Assembly (NCBI GenBank): GCA_003554505.1
Contig: PWGS01000077.1
Coordinates: 1 to 18,879 of the forward strand
Origin: Desulfonatronospira sp.
Lineage (GTDB): Bacteria > Desulfobacterota > Desulfovibrionia > Desulfovibrionales > Desulfonatronovibrionaceae
DNA: 18,879 nt
Reading direction: 5' to 3'
This document shows positions 264 to 16,931 of the stretch, in pieces. Under the pieces are notes generated by a model that worked only from the letters and a program-made list of their open reading frames with translations, was not told the origin of the DNA and did no database searches. The number at the start of each line of letters is the position of its first letter. Position 1 is the stretch's first letter. Made by a program: the position numbers and the translations under genes.

Positions 264-297
264 AAAAAAAAGGCCCTCCAGCTGGCTGGAGGGCCTT
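264..297 (-). terminator. intrinsic terminator of the DUF4168 operon
   Basis: A perfect 12-bp stem (270-281 with 286-297) and a 4-nt loop are followed, on the minus strand, by a run of eight T residues (plus-strand A tract 264-271). It lies about 45 bases past the stop of the small repeat-protein gene. It marks the 3' end of the two-gene minus-strand operon starting near 1029. Confidence 0.92.
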
Positions 298-342: not shown

Positions 343-579
343 TTAGAATCCGGGTTCTTCTCCCGGGTCACCGTAAGGATCTTCTCCTTCAGGCTGCTGG
401 TAGCCTTCGGGTGCGGGTTGTTCGTAGCCCTCGGGAGCAGGCTGTTCGTAGCCTTCAGGCGGTGCCTGTTCTTCAAAACCTTCGGGTGCGTCCATCTGTT
501 CTTGCTCGGGCTCGCCCCCCATGGAAAAACCCAGTACCAGCACTGCAGCCAGTGTCAATAGAATACCTTTAAGCCACAT
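343..579 (-). CDS. small exported or membrane-anchored PEGYEQPA-repeat protein
   Basis: This 78-residue protein matches no family I recognise. Residues 1-20 are a hydrophobic segment after Met-Trp-Leu-Lys, consistent with a signal peptide or N-terminal anchor; there is no lipobox Cys and no clear Ala-X-Ala cleavage site. The rest is acidic and low in complexity, rich in Pro, Glu, Gly, Tyr and Gln. It contains three near-identical PEGYEQPA octapeptides, encoded by 24-base tandem units at 401-472. A GGAGG ribosome binding site (plus-strand CCTCC, about 590-594) precedes the ATG. The gene lies 24 bases after the DUF4168 gene, and the strong terminator follows, so the two should be co-transcribed from the sigma-54 promoter. 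The composition suggests a disordered cell-envelope protein (inference). The repeat and signal make a real gene likely; the function is unknown. Confidence 0.8.
   Translation of the reverse strand: MWLKGILLTLAAVLVLGFSMGGEPEQEQMDAPEGFEEQAPPEGYEQPAPEGYEQPAPEGYQQPEGEDPYGDPGEEPGF
401..472 (-). repeat. three 24-bp in-frame tandem repeats
   Basis: Units at 401-424, 425-448 and 449-472 each encode the octapeptide PEGYEQPA or a close variant within the small exported protein. The third unit is the most divergent. Because the period is a multiple of three, gain or loss of a unit would keep the frame. Confidence 0.85.
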
Positions 580-603: not shown

Positions 604-1029
604 TTACTGCATTCCTTCAAGGCGTTCCAGGAGCTGGTTCCTGAGCTCTTCATCCACCTGGGCTGCTTCCATGACCTGGTTGTAGGTCTGTGCGTCCAGT
701 CCCTGGGCTTCAACTGCTTCTACCATTTCTTCTCCAGCCTGCTGCTGCAGCTCCTGTGCTCTTTCAGGATCTGAAACTTCACCCAGTTCCTGCTGAAATC
801 TTTCACGTACTTCTGTTACTGCCTGGTAGGCATCAGCAACCTGATCCAGCTCGGCATCGCTGACATCTACGTCAGGCGCCTGCTGCTGCTGCATCATTTC
901 CTGCTGATACTGCTGCTGTTGACCTTCCTGCTGGTATTCCTGCTGGGCCTGTACTTTCAGGCCGAAGCCGAGAATCAGCATTACTGTTGCTGCCAGACTG
1001 AGAACAATGGAACTTTTCGTGCTAAACAT
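604..1029 (-). CDS. secreted DUF4168 domain protein
   Basis: This 141-residue exported protein has an N-terminal signal peptide (about residues 1-28, ending in a Val-Gln-Ala cleavage motif). A Gln/Tyr-rich linker (about 29-50) follows, then an alpha-helical DUF4168 domain (about 52-139) with the family's pattern of SDAELDQVADAY, an ERAQELQQQA helix, and a GLDAQTYNQVMEAAQ-DEELR end. DUF4168 has no established biochemical role; members are small periplasmic or extracellular helical proteins. The ATG at 1029 follows GGAGGG at 7-nt spacing. A consensus sigma-54 promoter lies about 75-90 bases upstream, and the response regulator able to activate such promoters is the next gene upstream on the same strand. 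This suggests an envelope-stress effector comparable in position to ZraP beside ZraSR (inference). Confidence 0.88.
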   Translation of the reverse strand: MFSTKSSIVLSLAATVMLILGFGLKVQAQQEYQQEGQQQQYQQEMMQQQQAPDVDVSDAELDQVADAYQAVTEVRERFQQELGEVSDPERAQELQQQAGEEMVEAVEAQGLDAQTYNQVMEAAQVDEELRNQLLERLEGMQ

Positions 1030-1105
1030 TTAACCCTCCAAATAATAAATAAATTAGTTGTTGTGCCGCATTTCCTGTGCAGCAAAAAACACATAAGAAA
1101 TTACC

Positions 1106-1121
1106 AGCAATTGTTGTGCCA
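1106..1121 (-). promoter_or_regulatory. sigma-54 (RpoN) promoter of the DUF4168 operon
   Basis: Read on the minus strand the site is TGGCAC, five bases (AACAA), then TTGCT. This matches the sigma-54 consensus TGGCAC-N5-TTGCW, including the invariant GG (-24) and GC (-12) at correct spacing. Transcription would start near 1095, leaving a leader of about 65 bases before the ATG at 1029. Sigma-54 promoters need an enhancer-binding ATPase, and one is encoded immediately upstream. Confidence 0.85.
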
Positions 1122-1220
1122 GCTTTGCATTGAGCTTTTTGATCGGCTGCTGGCAATGCCGGAAAAGGCTTCTAAGAAAATTATAACCGGGTTTAGTGTG
1201 TCAGGCATGCAAGGAACTTG

Positions 1221-1237
1221 TGTGTCTTTATGGCACA
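1221..1237. promoter_or_regulatory. candidate enhancer-binding (UAS) site
   Basis: The imperfect 17-bp inverted repeat TGTGTC-N5-GGCACA lies about 130 bases upstream of the predicted sigma-54 start. That distance and the two-half-site, N5-spaced form are typical of NtrC-family upstream activating sequences. Only one convincing copy is visible, so assignment to the adjacent response regulator is inference. Confidence 0.4.
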
Positions 1238-1265
1238 TGGGACGGTTTTGGGGTGATATAAGGTG

Positions 1266-2669
1266 TTATCCATTCACCTCTTCTCCCAGCCTGCGGTAGA
1301 GGGTACGCCTGCCTATGCCCAGAATGGATGCCGCCCTGCGCTTGTTGCCCCCCACCTTGTCCAGCACGTGCTGAATATAACGATGTTCCACTTCGGAAAG
1401 GGAAGGCAGGCTCTGGTTCTGGAACAGGTGCTGAGAGACATGTGCGGCCTGGTCTTCCAGGGAAGAGGCCTGGTTTTCCCGGATGCGGGCCGGCAGGTGC
1501 CTGGGCAGTATTTCGCTGCCGTCGCAGAACGTCACTGCTCTTTCCACGGCATTCTGCAGTTCGCGCACATTGCCCGGGAAGTGATACTTTTCCAGGATGT
1601 TCAGGGCCTGTTGTGAAAAGCCCTGTATTTTTTTGCCCGTCTGGACGCAGAAGCGGCGCAGGAGTCTTTCCGCCAGGAGTTCCAGGTCGGCTTCCCGTTC
1701 TCTTAGAGGGGGGATTCTAAGGGTAAATGTCTCCAGACGGTAGAAAAGGTCTTCCCGGAAGTGGCCCTGGCGGACCTCCTCTTCAAGATCCCTGTGTGTG
1801 GCTGCCAGGATACGTACGTCCACCTGTTCCTCCTGGTTGCCCCCCACGGGGCGTACCTTGCCGTCCTGCAGCAGGCGCAGGAGTTTGGCCTGCATGAAAA
1901 GGGGCATTTCCGAAATCTCGTCCAGAAGCAGAGTGCCCCCGTGAGCCTCGGCAAAGAGTCCCTGCCTGGTTTTACTGGCCCCGGTGAATGCACCGGCCTT
2001 GTGCCCGAAGAACTCGCTTTCCAGGAGATGCTCGGGTATTCCGGCGCAGTTGACCGCCAGAAAGGGATTTTTTCCCCTTTTGCTTTCGCTGTGGATGGCC
2101 CTGGCCACAAGTTCCTTGCCTGTGCCCGACTCTCCCAGGATGAGCACCGGACCGTCGGCCTGGGCTACCCTGGTTATCTGGTCGAAAAGAAAGCGCATGC
2201 TCCGGCTCTGTCCGTACATATCATGAAAGCTGTCCGAGTTCAGCAGGCTTTTGATCTGCTTGACTTCCAGGCGCAGGGCACGGTTGCGAAGCACTCTCTC
2301 CACGGTGATCATGAAGTGGTCCAGATCCAGGGGTTTGGTCAGAAAGTCTTCGGCTCCGGCCTTGAGGGTCTCCACCGCCTTGGAAATGGTCCCGAAAGCG
2401 GTAATGATGAGAAAATCGGGCTGGTTTTCCGGAAACTCATTCCGGACCTTTTGCAGAAACTCAAGGCCGTCCATTCCGGGGAGTCTCAGGTCGCTTACCA
2501 CCAGATCCGGGTTCCAGGCGTTCATCATGGAAAGGGCTTCTTCCGCGCTGGAACACCAGTAGGCTTGAAGGCCGTTGTCCTGTACCTCTTCGGTTAGAAG
2601 CTGCCCCAGACCTTTGTCATCTTCAACCACTAGTACTTTGCTGTCCTTTATCTGAACCTGGTTCATCAT
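1266..2669 (-). CDS. sigma-54-dependent response regulator (NtrC/ZraR family)
   Basis: This 467-residue transcriptional activator has the full three-domain layout. The receiver domain (about 10-125) has acidic residues Asp17/Asp18, phospho-acceptor Asp60, Thr90 and Lys112. The AAA+ ATPase domain (about 150-380) has Walker A GESGTGKE at 179-186, the sigma-54-contacting GAFTGA loop at 226-231, and a Walker B ending in Asp250-Glu251. The C-terminal Fis-type helix-turn-helix is at about 434-463. Phosphorylation by the partner kinase should drive ATPase-dependent opening of sigma-54 promoters. The ATG shares one base with the kinase stop (TAATG), showing translational coupling. A consensus sigma-54 promoter lies 145 bases downstream, in front of the DUF4168 gene, the most obvious target (inference). 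The Zra/Atf/Hyd-like subfamily cannot be fixed from sequence alone. Confidence 0.95.
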   Translation of the reverse strand: MMNQVQIKDSKVLVVEDDKGLGQLLTEEVQDNGLQAYWCSSAEEALSMMNAWNPDLVVSDLRLPGMDGLEFLQKVRNEFPENQPDFLIITAFGTISKAVETLKAGAEDFLTKPLDLDHFMITVERVLRNRALRLEVKQIKSLLNSDSFHDMYGQSRSMRFLFDQITRVAQADGPVLILGESGTGKELVARAIHSESKRGKNPFLAVNCAGIPEHLLESEFFGHKAGAFTGASKTRQGLFAEAHGGTLLLDEISEMPLFMQAKLLRLLQDGKVRPVGGNQEEQVDVRILAATHRDLEEEVRQGHFREDLFYRLETFTLRIPPLREREADLELLAERLLRRFCVQTGKKIQGFSQQALNILEKYHFPGNVRELQNAVERAVTFCDGSEILPRHLPARIRENQASSLEDQAAHVSQHLFQNQSLPSLSEVEHRYIQHVLDKVGGNKRRAASILGIGRRTLYRRLGEEVNG

Positions 2670-4168
2670 TATTCCCTGGGTCCGCTGTCCCGGTTTTGTC
2701 CTTGCTGGGAAAGGGGCAGAACTATCCGGAATCTGGCTCCGCCCATGTCGCTTTTGTCCACTTCAACGTTTCCGCTGTGTTCTTCAGCAATGCCATGCAC
2801 CACTGCCAGCCCGAGGCCTGTGCCGATTCCTACGCTTTTTGTGGTGAAAAAAGGCTCAAACAGTTTGGATTCTATGTCCTGTGATATTCCAGGGCCGTTA
2901 TCATCCACCTGAAACCAGGCCCAGCCACCGGATTCTCCCCAGGTGAGCCGGACGCTGACCTTCGGACAGCACTGCAGGGCATTTTTCAGGAGGTTGACCA
3001 GGGCCTGTTCTATGCGGGTAGGCTCGACATTGATGCTTATCTCTTTGTCCGGCTCCTGCATGAGTAATTCACCACCTGTATTTCTGGCCTCTTCCACGGC
3101 CGAGGCATAAGCGGAGTGGGCCAGCTGCTTCATGGATACGTTTCTCTTCTGTTGTTCATTTCTACGGCTGAAGTCCAGCAGCTGCCTGATGATATTTTCC
3201 ATCCGGGCCACTTCATGGCGGATTTCCTGCATGGTGGAATCCAGCTCCGATGGGAGCTGCCTGTTTCTTTGAGCCCTCTGGGCCTTTCCGCTGACTACAC
3301 TCAGGGGAGTTCCCAGTTCATGAGCCACTCCGGCAGCCAGCTGCCCAAGGGCGGCCATCTTTTCCGCCTGCCTGAGCCTGGACTGCAGCTCTTCCTGGAC
3401 CTGCCTGCGCTCCCTGATTTCGCTTTCAGCTTTTTCTATGCTGTCCAGCATAAAATTAAAACGTTCTCCAATGGTGACTATCTCCCTGGGGCCCTGGGGC
3501 TTGAACCGGTGCCTCCTTTCTCCCCCGGCAACCCGGGACATGCTTTGGCTCAAGCGGGTGAAATATTTACCCAGGGCTTTGTGGTGGCCGTATAAAACCA
3601 GTGCGCTCATGAAAAAAACGGCCACTCCCAGGCCCATGACTCCCTTGGTCCTGATGGCGCTTATGTCCTCTTTGAAGTCGCTTTCACGCCGGGTGAGCTG
3701 CAGCAGTCCGCTTATACGCCCGCCGGAGTCTGTCAGGGGAACGAAATAGGAATACACCTCACGCCCTGCTACGTGACCGTATTCACCACGCCTTTCTCCT
3801 TCTGCGGCAAGTTCCGTGAGCTTGTCCTTCTGGGGGTCCGGGTCTGTTCTGCCGGCGGAAGCTATCTCCTGGCCGTCCTTGTCATAGACGTTTGCGCTGT
3901 AAACCCTGCCGATGGCAAAGGCCGACTCCAGGGCCTGGAGCATGCTGCCTTCCCGGTCGCGTTCCAACGCATGGCTAAGAGGCAACTGGATGGAGCGGGC
4001 CACCAGTTCCAGGTCGTTTTGCATTTGCTGTTCCACCTGTCTTTCCAGGGCGTTTAAGATCAGGTAGCCGGTAACGGCCAGAATGCATGCCAGGGGCAGA
4101 ACGACATAGACCACCAGGGCCAGGCGCAGGCTGAACAGCCTGGAAATGGGAGCTATTTTTTTAAGCAT
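2669..4168 (-). CDS. membrane sensor histidine kinase, partner of the sigma-54 regulator
   Basis: This 499-residue kinase has transmembrane helix 1 (about 15-40), an extracytoplasmic sensor region of roughly 130 residues, transmembrane helix 2 (about 176-194), a HAMP linker (about 196-248), and a coiled coil leading into the dimerisation domain. The phospho-acceptor is His283 in AGVAHELGTPLS, an NtrB/ZraS-like H box. The ATPase part shows the N box (LVNLLKNAL, Asn396), G1 (DDNGPGI near 423), F box (FEPFFTTK near 437) and G2 (GTGLGL near 450). The periplasmic domain has a short 'Val-Tyr-Asp-Lys-Asp-Gly' stretch reminiscent of single-Cache/PAS-like sensors; the ligand is unknown. Its stop overlaps the regulator start. 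A sigma-70-like promoter lies upstream (4210-4238), so the pair does not appear to depend on sigma-54 for its own expression. Confidence 0.95.
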   Translation of the reverse strand: MLKKIAPISRLFSLRLALVVYVVLPLACILAVTGYLILNALERQVEQQMQNDLELVARSIQLPLSHALERDREGSMLQALESAFAIGRVYSANVYDKDGQEIASAGRTDPDPQKDKLTELAAEGERRGEYGHVAGREVYSYFVPLTDSGGRISGLLQLTRRESDFKEDISAIRTKGVMGLGVAVFFMSALVLYGHHKALGKYFTRLSQSMSRVAGGERRHRFKPQGPREIVTIGERFNFMLDSIEKAESEIRERRQVQEELQSRLRQAEKMAALGQLAAGVAHELGTPLSVVSGKAQRAQRNRQLPSELDSTMQEIRHEVARMENIIRQLLDFSRRNEQQKRNVSMKQLAHSAYASAVEEARNTGGELLMQEPDKEISINVEPTRIEQALVNLLKNALQCCPKVSVRLTWGESGGWAWFQVDDNGPGISQDIESKLFEPFFTTKSVGIGTGLGLAVVHGIAEEHSGNVEVDKSDMGGARFRIVLPLSQQGQNRDSGPRE

Positions 4169-4209
4169 AATTTTTTAACCTTGCGCGACAATAATTGCAC
4201 ATGTGTCAT

Positions 4210-4238
4210 AATATACCATCTTTCATTAAATCAGGCAA
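4210..4238 (-). promoter_or_regulatory. sigma-70-type promoter of the kinase-regulator operon
   Basis: On the minus strand: TTGCCT (-35, plus 4233-4238), a 17-base spacer, then TATATT (-10, plus 4210-4215). The start would be near 4203, giving a leader of about 35 bases. Matches are 4/6 and 5/6 with ideal spacing. The rest of the 4169-4495 divergent spacer holds no gene. It does contain two opposed motif copies (4399-4415 and 4451-4463) resembling the large inverted repeat at 16934-17222. Confidence 0.55.
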
Positions 4239-4908: not shown

Positions 4909-5880
4909 GTGGCGGACTGGCTGAAAAAAAACTGGTTTATAGCCGGCCTTGTAGCGACAGTGCTTCTGGCCTGGCTGTTTCCTGAACCCGGAGCCAGGGG
5001 AGGGGTGCTTCAAAGCGAAGACACCACCAGGCTGGGAGTGATTCTGATTTTTCTGTTCCAGGGACTGACTCTGTCACCTGAGGCCGTCAAGACCGGACTG
5101 ATGCAGTGGAGGCTGCATATTTTTGTTCAGGTGTTCATCTTCCTGGTAATTCCCCTGGCAGCGCTTGTCTTGATATTTACCGCTTCCCCGGTTTTGTCCC
5201 GGGAACTGAGTACGGGCTTTTTTTTCCTTGCAGTCCTGCCCACCACCATAGCTACCTCGGTGGCTTATACTGCCATGACCAAAGGCAATGTGGCCGGAGC
5301 TGTTTTCAACTCCAGCCTGGCCAATGTGGCCGGGATATTTATTACTCCGCTATGGGTAAGTCTCTGGATGCAGGCAGGGGGAGTGAGTATGCCCCTGGGT
5401 GAATTGTTTCTGAATATTTCCAAGCTGTTGCTGGCTCCGTTTGTTGTAGGACAGATTTTAAGACCCGTGGTTTATAAGCAGGCTGATGCCCTTAAAAAAT
5501 ATTTTTCCATGACCAGCAGTCTCATCATTATTTTTATAGTTTATGCCGCCTTTTGCAATTCATGGGAAGACGGGATATGGGAGCAGCAGGGTCTTATGGC
5601 GGTACTCTCCGCCGGGGGAGGCTCGGCTTTTTTTCTGGCCCTGGTCCTGGGACTGGTTGCCATAGGGGTCAAGCTTTTTCGCTTTGAGCGTCAGAATGCC
5701 ATGGCCGCCCTTTTCTGCGCCCCTCAGAAAACCATGGCTGCTGGAGTGCCCATGGCCAATCTTATGTTTGAACACCATGCCGGCCTGGGGATGATTCTTC
5801 TGCCCCTTATGTTTTATCATCTCCTGCAGCTGCTGGTGGGCGGAGCCATGGTCAACAGGATAAACGCCGCTGGAAAGTAA
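4909..5880 (+). CDS. SBF-like (bile acid:sodium symporter family) transporter
   Basis: This 323-residue, very hydrophobic protein has about nine to ten membrane helices. It belongs to the SBF-like branch (YfeH / SLC10A7 type) of the bile acid/anion:sodium symporter superfamily. Visible family features are FLFQGLTLSPE in the second helix region, the LPTTIATSVAYTAMTKGN crossover motif with NSSLANVAGIFITPLW, and late APQKTMAAGVPMA. Family length is usually 310-340, so it is complete. The GTG start is preceded by a purine-rich AGGGGTAAG. The substrate is unknown; an organic or inorganic anion is only family-level inference. It is probably co-transcribed with the NfeD-like gene 26 bases upstream. 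The GC-rich palindrome at 5914-5972 follows the stop and may end or stabilise the transcript. Confidence 0.85.
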   Translation: MADWLKKNWFIAGLVATVLLAWLFPEPGARGGVLQSEDTTRLGVILIFLFQGLTLSPEAVKTGLMQWRLHIFVQVFIFLVIPLAALVLIFTASPVLSRELSTGFFFLAVLPTTIATSVAYTAMTKGNVAGAVFNSSLANVAGIFITPLWVSLWMQAGGVSMPLGELFLNISKLLLAPFVVGQILRPVVYKQADALKKYFSMTSSLIIIFIVYAAFCNSWEDGIWEQQGLMAVLSAGGGSAFFLALVLGLVAIGVKLFRFERQNAMAALFCAPQKTMAAGVPMANLMFEHHAGLGMILLPLMFYHLLQLLVGGAMVNRINAAGK

Positions 5881-9140: not shown

Positions 9141-9160
9141 GTTTGTATTTTGATACAAAC
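9141..9160. promoter_or_regulatory. perfect 8-bp inverted repeat upstream of the thiC riboswitch
   Basis: GTTTGTAT (9141-9148) and ATACAAAC (9153-9160) are perfect inverted copies around TTTG. The right arm ends exactly where the riboswitch P1 stem begins. It may be an operator for a repressor acting on thiC, or a hairpin competing with P1. Confidence 0.45.
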
Positions 9161-9240
9161 GCCAGGGGGCGCCCTTTAATGTAAGGGCTGAGAAGAACCC
9201 CGAGAACCTGATCCGGATAATACCGGCGGAGGGATTGGCG
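9160..9240 (+). ncRNA. TPP riboswitch (THI element) upstream of thiC
   Basis: The aptamer carries the conserved blocks of the thiamine-pyrophosphate riboswitch: GGGGGCGCC, GGGCTGAGA, CCGAGAACCTGATCCGGATA, and ATACCGGCGGAGGGATT. P1 forms from CGCCA (9160-9164) and TGGCG (9236-9240). Sensing TPP should shut off thiC. The likely output is translational: see the Shine-Dalgarno hairpin at 9308-9331. Confidence 0.95.
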
Positions 9241-9307
9241 AGCTCACCACCGAGAATTCTTTTTTTGTCCCTATCAGGGCCGTTCCCCAAGGTCAGCTTA
9301 CCTCTCC

Positions 9308-11533: not shown

Positions 11534-11641
11534 ATCAAGGCATTTGCTGGATGGTCAAAGTTTTTGTTTGAGTTTTTCAACCCTTTAAGATAAGAGGGTA
11601 AACGTTCTTTAATTGCATGCTCCGCAACCAGGGAGCTGTGT

Positions 11642-11731
11642 GTCGCTGGGGGAGGCCTGTGCCTGAGATTTCGGAATTTCCCGAAAGACCCCTCGCACCT
11701 GATCCGGATAATACCGGCGTAGGGAAGCGGC
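11642..11731 (+). ncRNA. TPP riboswitch upstream of thi4
   Basis: Conserved blocks are present: GGGGGAGGCC, GCCTGAGA, then CGCACCTGATCCGGATA and ATACCGGCGTAGGGAA. P1 forms from GTCGCT (11642-11647) and AGCGGC (11726-11731). An optional P3 arm (TTTCGG/CCGAAA) makes this aptamer longer than the thiC one. The output is transcription termination through the hairpin at 11779-11811. Confidence 0.95.
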
Positions 11732-11778
11732 TTTGGCATAACTTGAATTGCACGTAAGGGCAAAGTACAAGTTGATCA

Positions 11779-12760: not shown

Positions 12761-12879
12761 ATCAATAGTAGGGCACAAATATTCAAAAACTTGACTAAAA
12801 TATTTGCCGACTTAAATAAATTTGTCAGGAACTTACAGAGGTGCGGTTCAAATTCTGGTTTGGAAGGGAGAAAGCGATC

Positions 12880-13869
12880 ATGGAATACAAAGACTATTAC
12901 AAGATCCTGGGAGTGGATAAAAATGCTTCCCAGGAAGAGATCACCAAGGCCTATAAGAAACTGGCCAGAAAATATCATCCCGATTTGAACCCGGATGATT
13001 CTTCGGCTGAAGACAAGTTTAAAGACGTAAACGAAGCTTACGAAGTGCTCAAGGATCCTGAAAAGAGAAAGCATTACGATGCCCTGGGTGCCGACTGGCA
13101 GCACGGGCAGAATTTTCAGCCGCCGCCGGGTTATGAAAACGTACACTTTGAATTCCGCGGTGATCCCGGTGCAGGTCAGGGATTCGACATGGGCGGATTC
13201 AGTGATTTCTTTGAGTCTATTTTCAGGGGCTTCGGCGGTGCGGGCCAGGATTTCCGGGGCAGCGGCACCAGGGGGTTCAGGGGCGATCCTTTTTCCGGAG
13301 GGGGCTTTTCCTCCAAGGGACAGGACGCAGAGGCCACCCTGGAGCTGACCCTGGAAGAGGCCTACAAAGGCGGCAAAAAGAGCATTACTCTGCAGGAGCA
13401 GGTAATGGGCGCCGACGGCATGCCCCATGTGCAGAACAAGACCCTCAGCGTCAATGTGCCCAAGGGAATCAAGGACGGCAGCAAGATCCGTCTTTCAGGG
13501 CAGGGTTCGCCCGGACGCGGCCAGGGTGCTGCCGGGGATCTTTATCTCAAAGTGAGGATAGCCCCGCATCCCTATTTCAAGGTGGACGGCAACAATATTT
13601 TCTACGATCTGCCCCTTGCACCCTGGGAAGCTGCTCTGGGAGCCAAGATCCGTGTTCCCACCCTGGATGGAGATGTGGAAATTAATATTCCGGCCGGCAT
13701 CAGCAGCGGCCAGAAGATGCGCCTCAAGGGCCGCGGCCTTGGCCGGGGGGCTGCCAAGGGCGACCAGATGGTCAGAATAATGATAAAAGTCCCCAAACAA
13801 CTCACTGAAGAAGAAAAAGGCCTGTGGCAACAACTCTCGGAAAAATCAGGGTTTAACCCCAGGAATTAG
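12880..13869 (+). CDS. cbpA: CbpA-type DnaJ family co-chaperone
   Basis: This 329-residue co-chaperone stimulates DnaK ATPase and delivers substrates. An N-terminal J domain (about 4-70) with the invariant His-Pro-Asp at 33-35 (KYHPDLNP) precedes a Gly/Phe-rich region (about 85-150) and two C-terminal beta-domains (about 150-320). The CxxCxGxG zinc-finger repeats of DnaJ are absent, which makes it a class B / CbpA-like protein. The ATG at 12880 follows GAAGGGAG at good spacing; the GTG at 12841 would add 13 basic residues outside the J domain. It is followed 25 bases later by cbpM and then clpB, the arrangement known from Desulfovibrio genomes. No CIRCE operator is visible upstream. A TTGACT at 12791-12796 might belong to a promoter, but no good -10 partner is evident. 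Confidence 0.92.
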
Positions 13870-13894
13870 AACAGGTTTTTTCATGGAGGAAAGC

Positions 13895-14212
13895 ATGTCC
13901 AGCTATATACAAACCCGAAGACAGGGAACTTTGATAAGGGCAAACCTGATACACTGGTCCCAGTTTGTGCAGCGTACCGGGGTCTGCCCCAGTATGCTGG
14001 GTGAACTCGTTGAGATGGGCTGGGTGGAGTCCATCTGCACTTCGCCTGATAGCTATCATTTCCCGGAAAAAGAAGTTTTCCGGGTACAGAAACTGGTCCG
14101 CCTGTGCCGGGACTTTGAGCTGCCGACCATCGGCGGGGTGCTCATCATTGACCTGCTGGACAGAATTGAGCAGCAGGATAAGGAGATCAGGCAACTCAGA
14201 AGATTAATATAG
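13895..14212 (+). CDS. cbpM: CbpM-like chaperone modulator (MerR-like)
   Basis: This 105-residue protein has a MerR-like winged-helix start (FVQRTGVCPSMLGELVEMGWVESI) and a C-terminal helical part (VQKLVRLCRDFELPTIGGVLIIDLLDRIEQQDKEIRQLRRLI) characteristic of CbpM. In E. coli CbpM binds the J domain of CbpA and limits its activity; Desulfovibrio-type relatives are usually annotated as MerR-family regulators, so a DNA-binding role remains possible. GGAGGA at 13885-13890 fixes the ATG at 13895. The ATG at 13883 overlaps that site. It lies between cbpA and clpB on the same strand. Confidence 0.85.
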   Translation: MSSYIQTRRQGTLIRANLIHWSQFVQRTGVCPSMLGELVEMGWVESICTSPDSYHFPEKEVFRVQKLVRLCRDFELPTIGGVLIIDLLDRIEQQDKEIRQLRRLI

Positions 14213-14257
14213 TTTTCATCCGGAAACGGTTCTTTTCCTCGTTTCCGGAAAGAAAAC
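14212..14257. repeat. extended hairpin between cbpM and clpB
   Basis: TCCGGAAACG (14219-14228) and CGTTTCCGGA (14240-14249) pair perfectly, and flanking GTTTTC/GAAAAC extend the stem with a small bulge. No T tract follows. The first 14 bases (AGTTTTCATCCGGA, from 14211) are identical to the left end of the 289-bp inverted-repeat element after clpB (16934-16947). Confidence 0.75.
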
Positions 14258-14270
14258 CATCAGTTTCAGC

Positions 14271-14295
14271 ATCCGGCAATAAGGAATTGCCGGAT
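14271..14295. repeat. second hairpin before clpB
   Basis: ATCCGGCAAT (14271-14280) and ATTGCCGGAT (14286-14295) form a perfect 10-bp stem with a 5-base loop, 16 bases before the clpB ribosome binding site. With the preceding hairpin it could attenuate, protect or process the message and so set clpB output relative to cbpA-cbpM. Confidence 0.75.
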
Positions 14296-14324
14296 GGTAA
14301 CTATAATAGTTTGGAGGAACAATC

Positions 14325-16931
14325 ATGGATATAAATAAATTTACCCAGAAATCCCAGGAAGCCATATCAGCTGCCCAGGAAGTAGCCATGCGCCTGGGAC
14401 ATCAGCAGGTTGAGGTGGAGCACCTGTTCAAGTCTCTGCTGGAGCAGGAGCAGGGGCTTGTCCCCAGGATCCTGCAGCAGGCGGGATACAACCCCGGCTC
14501 CATCAGCGCCTTACTGGACAAGCAGCTGGAAAAGCTGCCTCGGGTGAGCGGTCCTGGGAGCCAGCCTGGACAGATATACGTGACCCAGAGGCTGAATTCG
14601 CTTCTGCTCAAGGCCAAGGATATGGCCAAAAGCATGCAGGACGAATATGTAAGCGTGGAGCATATACTTTTGTCCATCCTGGATGAGTCCCCTTCAACCG
14701 GGTCGGGCAAGGTTGTTGCCGAGTACAAGATAGACAAGAACAAGGTGCTGTCGGCTCTCACCAGCGTCAGGGGCAGCCAGAGGGTGACTTCGGCTTCCCC
14801 GGAGGAAACATATGATGCCCTGAAAAAATACGGCCGGGACCTGGTGGAAGAGGCCCAGGAAGGCAAGCTGGATCCGGTTATAGGTCGAGACAGCGAGATA
14901 CGCCGGTGCATAAGGATACTGTCCAGGCGGACCAAGAACAACCCGGTGCTCATCGGTGAAGCCGGGGTGGGCAAGACGGCCATTGCCGAGGGCCTGGCTC
15001 AGAGGATCCTTAACCGGGACGTGCCCGAGGGGCTCAAAGATAAGACCATCTTCGCCCTGGACATGGGGGCCCTTATAGCCGGGGCCAAGTACAGGGGGGA
15101 GTTTGAAGAGCGCCTCAAGGCCGTTCTCAAGGAGGTACAGCAGTCCGAAGGCCGGATTCTGCTTTTTATCGATGAGATCCACACCATTGTGGGCGCCGGC
15201 AAAACCGAAGGTTCCATGGATGCCGGAAACCTCTTAAAGCCCATGCTGGCTCGAGGGGAACTGCACTGCATAGGTGCCACCACCATTGATGAATACCGCA
15301 AGAATATCGAAAAAGACCCGGCCCTGGAACGGCGCTTTCAGCCGGTCATGGTGGACGAGCCCAGCGTGGAGGATACAGTATCCATTCTGCGTGGTCTCAG
15401 GGAACGTTTTGAAGTACACCACGGTGTACGCATCAGCGACGGCTCCCTGGTTTCAGCAGCCACTCTCTCGCATCGGTATATATCGGATCGTTTCCTCCCG
15501 GACAAGGCAATTGACCTGATAGACGAGTCCGCGGCCAAGATCCGCAGCGAAATCGATTCCCTGCCCACGGAGCTGGACGAGATAAACCGCAAGATCATGC
15601 AGCTGGAAATCGAGCAGGAGGCACTGAAAAGGGAGAAGGATGAGGCCTCCAGGGAAAGACTGGACAAGCTGGGAAAAGAGCTTGCGGATTTAAAGGAAGA
15701 GCAGTCCAGGCTGAGGAGCAGATGGGAGCACGAAAAAGAATCCATCAACTCCCTGCGTTCTCTGAAGGAAGATATAGAACGCACCAAGCTGGAGATTGAA
15801 AACGCTGAAAGAGCTTATGACCTGAACAAGGCGGCGGAACTGCGCTACGGCAAGCTGCATCAGCTTGAAAAGGAACTTGCAGAGAAGGAATCCGCCATAA
15901 GCGGCGACAGTGACGAGGAGATGCTTTTAAAGGAAGAGGTGGGTCCTGACGATGTGGCTGAGATCATATCCAAGTGGACCGGCATTCCCGTGACCAGGCT
16001 GCTGGAAGGAGAACGTGAAAAGCTTCTCAAGCTTGCCGATATCCTGCATGAAAGGGTCATCGGCCAGGACGAGGCGGTGGACGCAGTGGCCGATGCAGTG
16101 CTGCGGGCAAGGTCGGGGCTGAAGGATCCAAACCGGCCCATCGGCTCGTTCCTGTTCCTGGGACCCACCGGCGTAGGCAAGACCGAGCTGACCAAGACCC
16201 TGGCCCTGAATCTGTTTGATACCGTGGAAAACATGATCCGCCTGGACATGTCGGAATATATGGAAAAGCACACTGTGGCCCGCATGATCGGTGCTCCTCC
16301 GGGATACGTGGGGTATGACGAGGGCGGTCAGCTTACCGAGGCTGTGCGGCGCAAGCCCTACAGCGTAATCCTTTTTGACGAGGTGGAAAAGGCACATGCA
16401 GACGTGTTCAACGTACTGCTGCAGATTATGGATGACGGCCGGCTCACTGACAGTCACGGTCGCACCGTGGACTTTAAAAACACAGTGGTCATTATGACCT
16501 CCAACCTGGGCTCGCAGTATCTTCTGGAGGGTATTACCCCGGACGGGCAGCTGCGAGAAGATGTCCGGGACCAGGTCATGAATACGGTAAAGTCACATTT
16601 CAGGCCGGAGTTTCTAAACCGTCTGGATGAGATCGTCATGTTCAAGCCTCTGCTTCTGGAAGAGATTGAGCAGATTATTGAACTTCTCCTGCAGCAGGTC
16701 CGGGATCGCCTCCAGGACCGCAAGATAGGCGTGCAGTTAAACGAGGCTGCCAGGCATTTCATTGCCAGAGAGGCTTATGACCCTGTCTACGGGGCCAGGC
16801 CCCTGCGCAGATATCTGCAGCAGCATGTGGAAACGCCCCTGGCCAAGGAGATCATTGCCGGCAGGCTTATGGACGGCCAGCAAGTCACCATAGACCTGGA
16901 GAACGACCAGTTAAGCATCAAGGCACAATAA
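14325..16931 (+). CDS. clpB: ATP-dependent disaggregase ClpB
   Basis: This 868-residue Hsp100 unfoldase extracts proteins from aggregates together with DnaK. The N domain (about 1-145) is followed by AAA+ module 1 with Walker A GEAGVGKT at 211-218 and Walker [11 protein letters not shown] long coiled-coil middle domain (about 405-530, with the [21 protein letters not shown] stretch typical of ClpB) distinguishes it from ClpA/ClpC. AAA+ module 2 has GPTGVGKT at 613-620, [18 protein letters not shown] and the [13 protein letters not shown] pore loop. There is no IGF/IGL ClpP-binding loop visible. Length compares with 857 for E. coli. ATG with GGAGG at about 14312-14316. It is the third gene of the cbpA-cbpM-clpB cluster, separated from cbpM by two hairpins. 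Confidence 0.98.

Follow-up and report, generated by a model that had tools for sequence, protein, structure and literature searches.

In Escherichia coli the response regulator ZraR controls the divergent sigma-54 promoters of zraSR and zraP, the product of the latter being a periplasmic chaperone (PMC4987338), and zraP, zraSR and mgtA have been given as its direct targets (PMC7657598). Within the Desulfovibrionales, DVU3381 of Desulfovibrio vulgaris (acting as DVU3382-DVU3381 on the target DVU3384) and DVU1419 (target DVU0036) have been described as sigma-54 response regulators connected with envelope stress (PMC4641369), and the targets of both are called hypothetical, with functions unknown (PMC3333781). 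Here we describe a locus of comparable plan in a stretch of 18,879 nucleotides from Desulfonatronospira sp. (contig PWGS01000077.1, the whole of which is called the window), where genes for a sensor histidine kinase and an NtrC-family response regulator lie upstream of a gene for a secreted DUF4168 protein. An earlier note, made from the letters of the window, had proposed that a sigma-54 promoter and an upstream inverted repeat connect these genes. A further relative in plan is Cpx with CpxP, and also Spy, in which a kinase controls a small periplasmic helical protein; the Cpx-type systems have an OmpR-type regulator and sigma-70 promoters.

We put the probability that the locus is part of a ZraPSR-like two-component sigma-54 regulon with a new effector set at about 85%, and the regulatory part of the claim is strongly supported by sequence comparison. 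It appears that, in soda-lake sulfate reducers and some of their relatives, the kinase and sigma-54 activator turn on the genes for a secreted DUF4168 protein and a small lipoprotein. A full-text search of a library of open-access papers gave no mention of DUF4168 or PF13767, and among the papers listed by further searches none describes such a system in its title or the opening of its abstract, most subscription journals being outside the scope of these searches.

The locus and its promoter

The genome to which the window belongs (as contig C96) is a 1.64 Mb draft in 306 contigs and is 82.6% complete; the related Desulfonatronospira metagenome-assembled genomes (MAGs) are presumably, judging from isolate names, from soda-lake sediment samples. 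On the minus strand the order is kinase, regulator, palindrome, sigma-54 promoter, DUF4168 gene, proline-rich peptide and terminator, and domain matches agree with what the note had said of the three principal genes. The open reading frame (ORF) of the sensor histidine kinase (2669-4168, minus strand) has HAMP, HisKA (AHELGTPL) and HATPase_c domains, with an N-terminal sensor part that by eye lies between two hydrophobic segments. The regulator (1266-2669, minus strand) has the architecture of an NtrC-type bacterial enhancer-binding protein, comprising a receiver, a Sigma54_activat AAA+ domain with GAFTGA, as read in the translation, and a Fis-type helix-turn-helix (HTH_8). The DUF4168 (PF13767) protein of 141 amino acids (604-1029, minus strand; 54.5 bits against a Pfam cut-off of 25.8) has an N-terminus that looks signal-like by eye, a Q-rich linker and a four-helix domain, with helices predicted at residues 58-83, 88-108, 113-125 and 127-140. 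RpoN is encoded elsewhere in the same genome (PF04552, 205 bits).

The promoter TGGCACAACAATTGCT (1106-1121, minus strand) reads TGGCAC-N5-TTGCT and fits the GG-N10-GC core (TGGCAC-N5-TTGCW). The claim made for it stands. It is the sole match without a mismatch in the window and scores 18.0 bits on a sigma-54 matrix whose maximum is 18.6 bits and whose weights were set by hand. Eight other matches each have two mismatches, a tolerance at which 13.2 matches are expected by chance and a match has little meaning; the bare pattern at up to two mismatches is therefore no commoner in the window than chance, and conservation was taken as the evidence instead. The predicted transcription start, computed as 12 nt past the C of the -12 GC, falls at 1095 on the minus strand, the same base that the note had implied. 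The enhancer, or upstream activating sequence, is a 17-bp inverted repeat, TGTGCCATAAAGACACA on the minus strand, at 1221-1237, and its centre is 108 nt upstream of the promoter motif. It scores 24.6 bits, against 7.0 for the next-best position in the window, on a matrix trained on seven sites of the window's genus only, this palindrome being one of them. The operon of DUF4168 and the peptide is closed, as had been read before, by an intrinsic terminator with a 12-pair stem (270-297, minus strand) followed by T6.

Across the whole genome the strict sigma-54 pattern has eight matches, five of them in the regulon, and the reversed control pattern has two. Of the remaining three, L161 and L164 adjoin frames that by our own reading resemble sensors or regulators belonging to different sigma-54 systems, and L163 lies within coding sequence. 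One further sigma-54-like site in the window (4035-4020, minus strand, 11.1 bits), which is also present in the sister genomes, was set aside as coding sequence inside the kinase gene.

Conservation of the promoter and enhancer

DUF4168 is present in 21 of 61 genomes, that of the window included, with 33 matches in all, and a matrix scan places a sigma-54 site upstream of most of these genes. They also share a second upstream element, and this is the inverted repeat of the earlier note; its consensus is about TGTGYCAWAWATRCACA, and before DUF4168 genes it lies 97-240 nt upstream of the sigma-54 site. A pair was defined as an enhancer of at least 7 bits followed 60-260 nt downstream by a sigma-54 site of at least 10 bits, or, under the strict criterion, 8 bits for the enhancer and 13 bits for the sigma-54 site. 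Pairs were tabulated for 45 DUF4168 loci, consisting of the 33 from the 61 genomes, a further two from the order (L155, L156), two from Syntrophobacteraceae and another eight from other parts of the phylum. Twenty-eight are linked to a kinase or regulator gene and 17 are unlinked; L108 counts as linked through the regulator beside DUF4168, with no kinase in its 8-kb stretch, and L037 through a regulator gene inside which its contig starts.

Every one of the 28 linked loci has the pair (24 under the strict criterion), as do 10 of the 17 unlinked loci (9 strict; those without it are L036, L039, L040, L046, L050, L055 and L155), against only 7 of 659 control ORFs (5 strict). The controls are mechanical frames of at least 120 codons from the same stretches, not verified genes, and those less than 1.5 kb from a DUF4168 gene were excluded. 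All seven positive controls adjoin enhancers of the same regulon: five flank one that lies beside a conserved class III cytochrome c gene, and the other two are kinase genes with their own copy of the enhancer and a weak sigma-54 site inside the gene. A previous control run with narrower bounds gave 11 of 687, six being DUF4168 genes of the genus that were then still included and five being due to the cytochrome enhancer. Since the enhancer matrix was built from seven sites of the genus, the 21 linked loci outside it are independent of the training set. Conservation of the site before DUF4168 orthologues was one of the tests that the earlier note had set for itself, and the site is conserved there; decided in this way, by comparison of sequences, the promoter and enhancer exceed chance.

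A combined enhancer-promoter pattern was matched in 23 of 199 genomes of the order, the reversed control giving one match. Seven of these genomes have the match at a DUF4168 locus, one before the kinase gene of G043, one (G027) apart from its DUF4168 locus, and 14 belong to family f5. Several of the 15 loci in family f5 (L119-L133) have other palindromes, either TGTGCA-N5-TGCACA or TGTGTAAATTTTATACA, at a comparable distance ahead of sigma-54 sites, and are apparently separate regulons.

Co-occurrence and distribution

It had been suggested that related genomes be scanned for the kinase-regulator pair together with DUF4168, and the two do travel together. Kinase orthologues (E <1e-120, with up to 25 candidates scored per genome) are found in 20 of the 61 genomes, again counting that of the window. 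Both kinase and DUF4168 occur in 19, DUF4168 without the kinase in two (66% and 77% complete), the kinase without DUF4168 in one (G043) and neither in 39. A phylum sample of 395 genomes, with three kinase candidates scored in each, has the kinase and DUF4168 above the cut-off in the same nine genomes; four DUF4168 matches under the cut-off (G364, G509, G523 and G564) are left out of these counts. Fisher's exact test gives p values of 1.4e-12 for the 61 genomes and 7e-17 phylum-wide, both ignoring shared descent. In all eight carriers of the phylum sample other than the window genome, kinase and DUF4168 genes are adjacent and divergent.

A class-wide search found DUF4168 in 20 of 297 genomes and added G225, a member of family f5 with the full locus, and G208, which has no kinase within 10 kb of DUF4168 and no site pair. 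The strict kinase search found no orthologue among the 11 genomes of family f5 in the 61-genome set. Furthermore, two Syntrophobacteraceae MAGs carry the locus, which is complete in L107 and has just the regulator in L108. A quick kinase tree puts L107 next to a sequence from Desulfonatronum, with a support of 89 in the Shimodaira-Hasegawa-like approximate likelihood ratio test (SH-aLRT), a placement that suggests horizontal transfer without proving it.

Named carriers of the kinase or of DUF4168 include Desulfonatronospira, Desulfonatronovibrio, Desulfonatronum, Desulfovermiculus, Desulfosalsimonas and Oceanidesulfovibrio. The kinase is also found in Desulfurispira natronophila and Chitinispirillum alkaliphilum (among the 120 matches listed of 462), and DUF4168 in Idiomarina and Arsukibacterium (among the 120 listed of 130). 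Many of all these carriers we take to be halophiles or haloalkaliphiles. The kinase gene of G043 (L089, contig C16), a genome in which no DUF4168 was found, itself has an enhancer and sigma-54 pair with a spacing of 97, about 200 nt before the gene.

The second gene of the operon

By our own reading, a short secreted Pro/Glu-rich protein, usually with G-Y-E-Q-P-like motifs, is encoded downstream of DUF4168 in 19 of the 28 linked loci, the window among them. The count omits the second of two overlapping ORFs in L060, together with flagged downstream ORFs of L053, L149 and L151 that do not resemble peptides with a signal sequence. Directly past the signal sequence 18 of the 19 have by eye a Cys in the fashion of lipoproteins, an automated lipobox expression having picked out some of these but not all. 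The window copy is the Pro/Glu-rich PEGYEQP-repeat peptide (ORF 343-579, minus strand). The repeat peptide that the note had placed in the operon does follow DUF4168, but it needs to be redescribed as one member of a family of small lipoprotein-like peptides. The window copy has Gly (FSMGGEP) in place of the lipobox Cys of its relatives, and this substitution could be real or an error of the draft assembly. In L152 a lipoprotein-like frame lies between promoter and DUF4168 instead, and in L148 the corresponding stretch is interrupted by an early stop, again by our own reading.

A proposed mode of action

The kinase would sense a condition in the periplasm, and the phosphorylated regulator would then bind the palindrome and activate RNA polymerase carrying RpoN. 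Once exported, the helical DUF4168 protein might, together with the anchored lipoprotein, protect or remodel the envelope, and perhaps the two would also damp the kinase as CpxP and ZraP do. Judged from analogy and from the make-up of the targets, a role in an envelope response is most likely; the "envelope response" label of the earlier note is something that we too infer by analogy. Such a response may suit life in soda lakes. For the DUF4168 family the gain is a specific regulator, a promoter, a DNA motif and an operon partner, and with them a testable role.

Other targets and possible autoregulation

The module had been called self-contained, and this does not hold, because similar sites precede DUF4168 paralogues and a class III cytochrome c gene elsewhere. 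On contig C44 of the same genome a DUF4168 paralogue has a sigma-54 site of 18.0 bits with a weaker enhancer (9.4 bits), a gene for a collagen-like GYEPP-repeat protein has a sigma-54 site and an enhancer whose match is poor (7.4 bits with the first matrix), and the cytochrome gene has a good enhancer with a sigma-54 site of 18.0 bits, an arrangement conserved in three genomes of the genus. Contig C176 ends just past another enhancer-promoter pair. The sites before the DUF4168 paralogues and the cytochrome gene suggest that one regulator may control several envelope operons in trans.

The cytochrome is also the starting point of the best of the rival explanations, in which the regulon is real but tunes periplasmic electron transfer or a surface structure, a matter of redox or respiration, with DUF4168 and the lipoproteins being structural or cytochrome-associated and envelope stress having no part. 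The shared enhancer and sigma-54 site in three genomes of the genus, and the many sulfate reducers among the named carriers of the kinase (in the 120 matches listed of 462), speak for such a role. Against it, a cytochrome belonging to the regulon was seen in those three genomes alone, while the partner that stays constant is DUF4168, and the layout matches that of ZraPSR; we consider this explanation unlikely, though it is the one to be taken most seriously after the ZraPSR-like envelope regulon.

A broader version of the envelope reading would make this an envelope regulon that is mobile and associated with haloalkaliphiles. Its ZraR-like activator would act in trans on a whole set of DUF4168 proteins, on PGYEQP lipoproteins, on a class III cytochrome and possibly on non-coding RNAs too, and much of the recognisable sigma-54 sigmulon of the draft genome would be given over to it. 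We offer this tentatively, as a proposal that would more probably than not have to be trimmed; were it true, DUF4168 proteins would form a class of their own, hitherto undescribed, among the periplasmic stress proteins, serving life in soda brine.

Two sites may be promoters of non-coding RNAs. The enhancer at 5214-5230 of contig C44 (L031:5115-5369; also L042:3134-3388) has sigma-54 sites on both sides, one of them facing the gene for the class III cytochrome c; the second, with a start expected near 5395 and no convincing ORF, is a candidate promoter of this kind. At L090:2850-3300 (G002, contig C71) there is a strong enhancer with a sigma-54 site of 16.4 bits at a spacing of 102 and, by eye, a terminator-like hairpin about 250 nt later, and with no convincing ORF it is a candidate for a second sigma-54 non-coding RNA.

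The palindrome also recurs at the start of the kinase gene. In the window this copy, TGGTATATTATGACACA on the minus strand (4202-4218), is degenerate at 3.6 bits; four of five sister genomes have 13.5-23.0 bits at the equivalent place and the fifth has a half-site. In 18 of 26 kinase genes, divergent and co-oriented alike, a palindrome of at least 7 bits has its centre 61-82 bp ahead of an SLR codon that is conserved close to the start. The remaining genes comprise L041, with a half-site at 78, the degenerate copy of the window, L156, with its best match at 124, and L148, L150, L152, L154 and L045, where distances of 58-280 were measured from another motif and are not comparable. No match to the sigma-54 pattern precedes the kinase gene in the window, and the five sisters score 11.6 bits in one case and at most 6.5 in the others. 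From a palindrome at the kinase start with no good sigma-54 site we infer autoregulation, possibly by repression.

Relation to ZraPSR

Layout and enhancer shape both bear out the analogy with ZraSR and zraP that had been drawn for the window. Both systems have a kinase and a GAFTGA regulator, with a sigma-54 promoter leading to a small exported protein, and the divergent orientation of zraP and zraSR in E. coli K-12 is found again in the linked loci of other genera than that of the window. The regulator shares 43% identity with E. coli ZraR, and the kinase core is 33% identical to ZraS, the kinase domain of which is the best PDB match (9jfj). Scored with the same sigma-54 matrix, the intergenic region between zraP and zraS of E. 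coli has one site in each direction, at 15.5 and 15.7 bits. The 17-bp palindrome of that region, TGAGTAAAAATGACTCG, has an A/T core and scores 6.7 bits on the enhancer matrix, and by eye it is a cousin of TGTGTCATAWATRCACA.

These likenesses would also fit an ordinary ZraR orthologue, the system then being ZraPSR with a ZraP that has been replaced or goes unrecognised. However, the regulator scores under the NCBIfam cut-off for ZraR (388 against 760 bits) and the kinase under that for ZraS (149 against 479). The sensor part is 21.9% identical to that of ZraS, compared with 22.5% for shuffled sequence, so that no relationship is detectable between them. DUF4168 is likewise unlike ZraP in sequence: hhalign gives a probability of 2%, on the signal sequence only, and a Pfam search at E 0.001 returns DUF4168 alone. 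There are differences of arrangement too, for in the window's genus the kinase and regulator genes are upstream of DUF4168 and co-oriented with it, no good sigma-54 site stands before the kinase in the window or the five sisters, and the effectors are DUF4168 and a lipoprotein-like peptide, with several target operons. Orthology with ZraPSR is accordingly improbable in our estimation, more so than the redox role; by the sequence features tested the system resembles ZraPSR in the way it works without belonging to it. This suggests that the ZraPSR plan of kinase, sigma-54 activator and periplasmic effector is met with again, built from a different effector and a different sensor.

That some other sigma-54 activator controls DUF4168, the adjacent pair being a coincidental neighbour, is very improbable, for although contig C283 has a similar regulator (L085; 45% identity over 49% of the window regulator) and the kinase lies apart from DUF4168 in G007, G010 and G013, where the site pair is still found before DUF4168 (L047-L049), the adjacency recurs in 28 loci from many families and the same palindrome stands at the kinase's own start.

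Cpx with CpxP, and Spy, share with the window a small helical protein under kinase control, and the match to CpxA covers the kinase core only. The D. vulgaris regulators DVU3381 and DVU1419, set beside the locus by description only, are similarly sigma-54-dependent Desulfovibrionales regulators with hypothetical targets.

Other observations

In the same genome a partial match to the LTXXQ family, the kin of ZraP, Spy and CpxP, lies at the very edge of a contig (C291:18-158, L081) and scores just over the cut-off. The window also has two thiamine pyrophosphate (TPP) riboswitches, at 9155-9252 before thiC (9338) and at 11638-11742 before a thiazole synthase gene (11810), and on its plus strand, at 12841-16931, a DnaJ-like gene and a ClpB gene.

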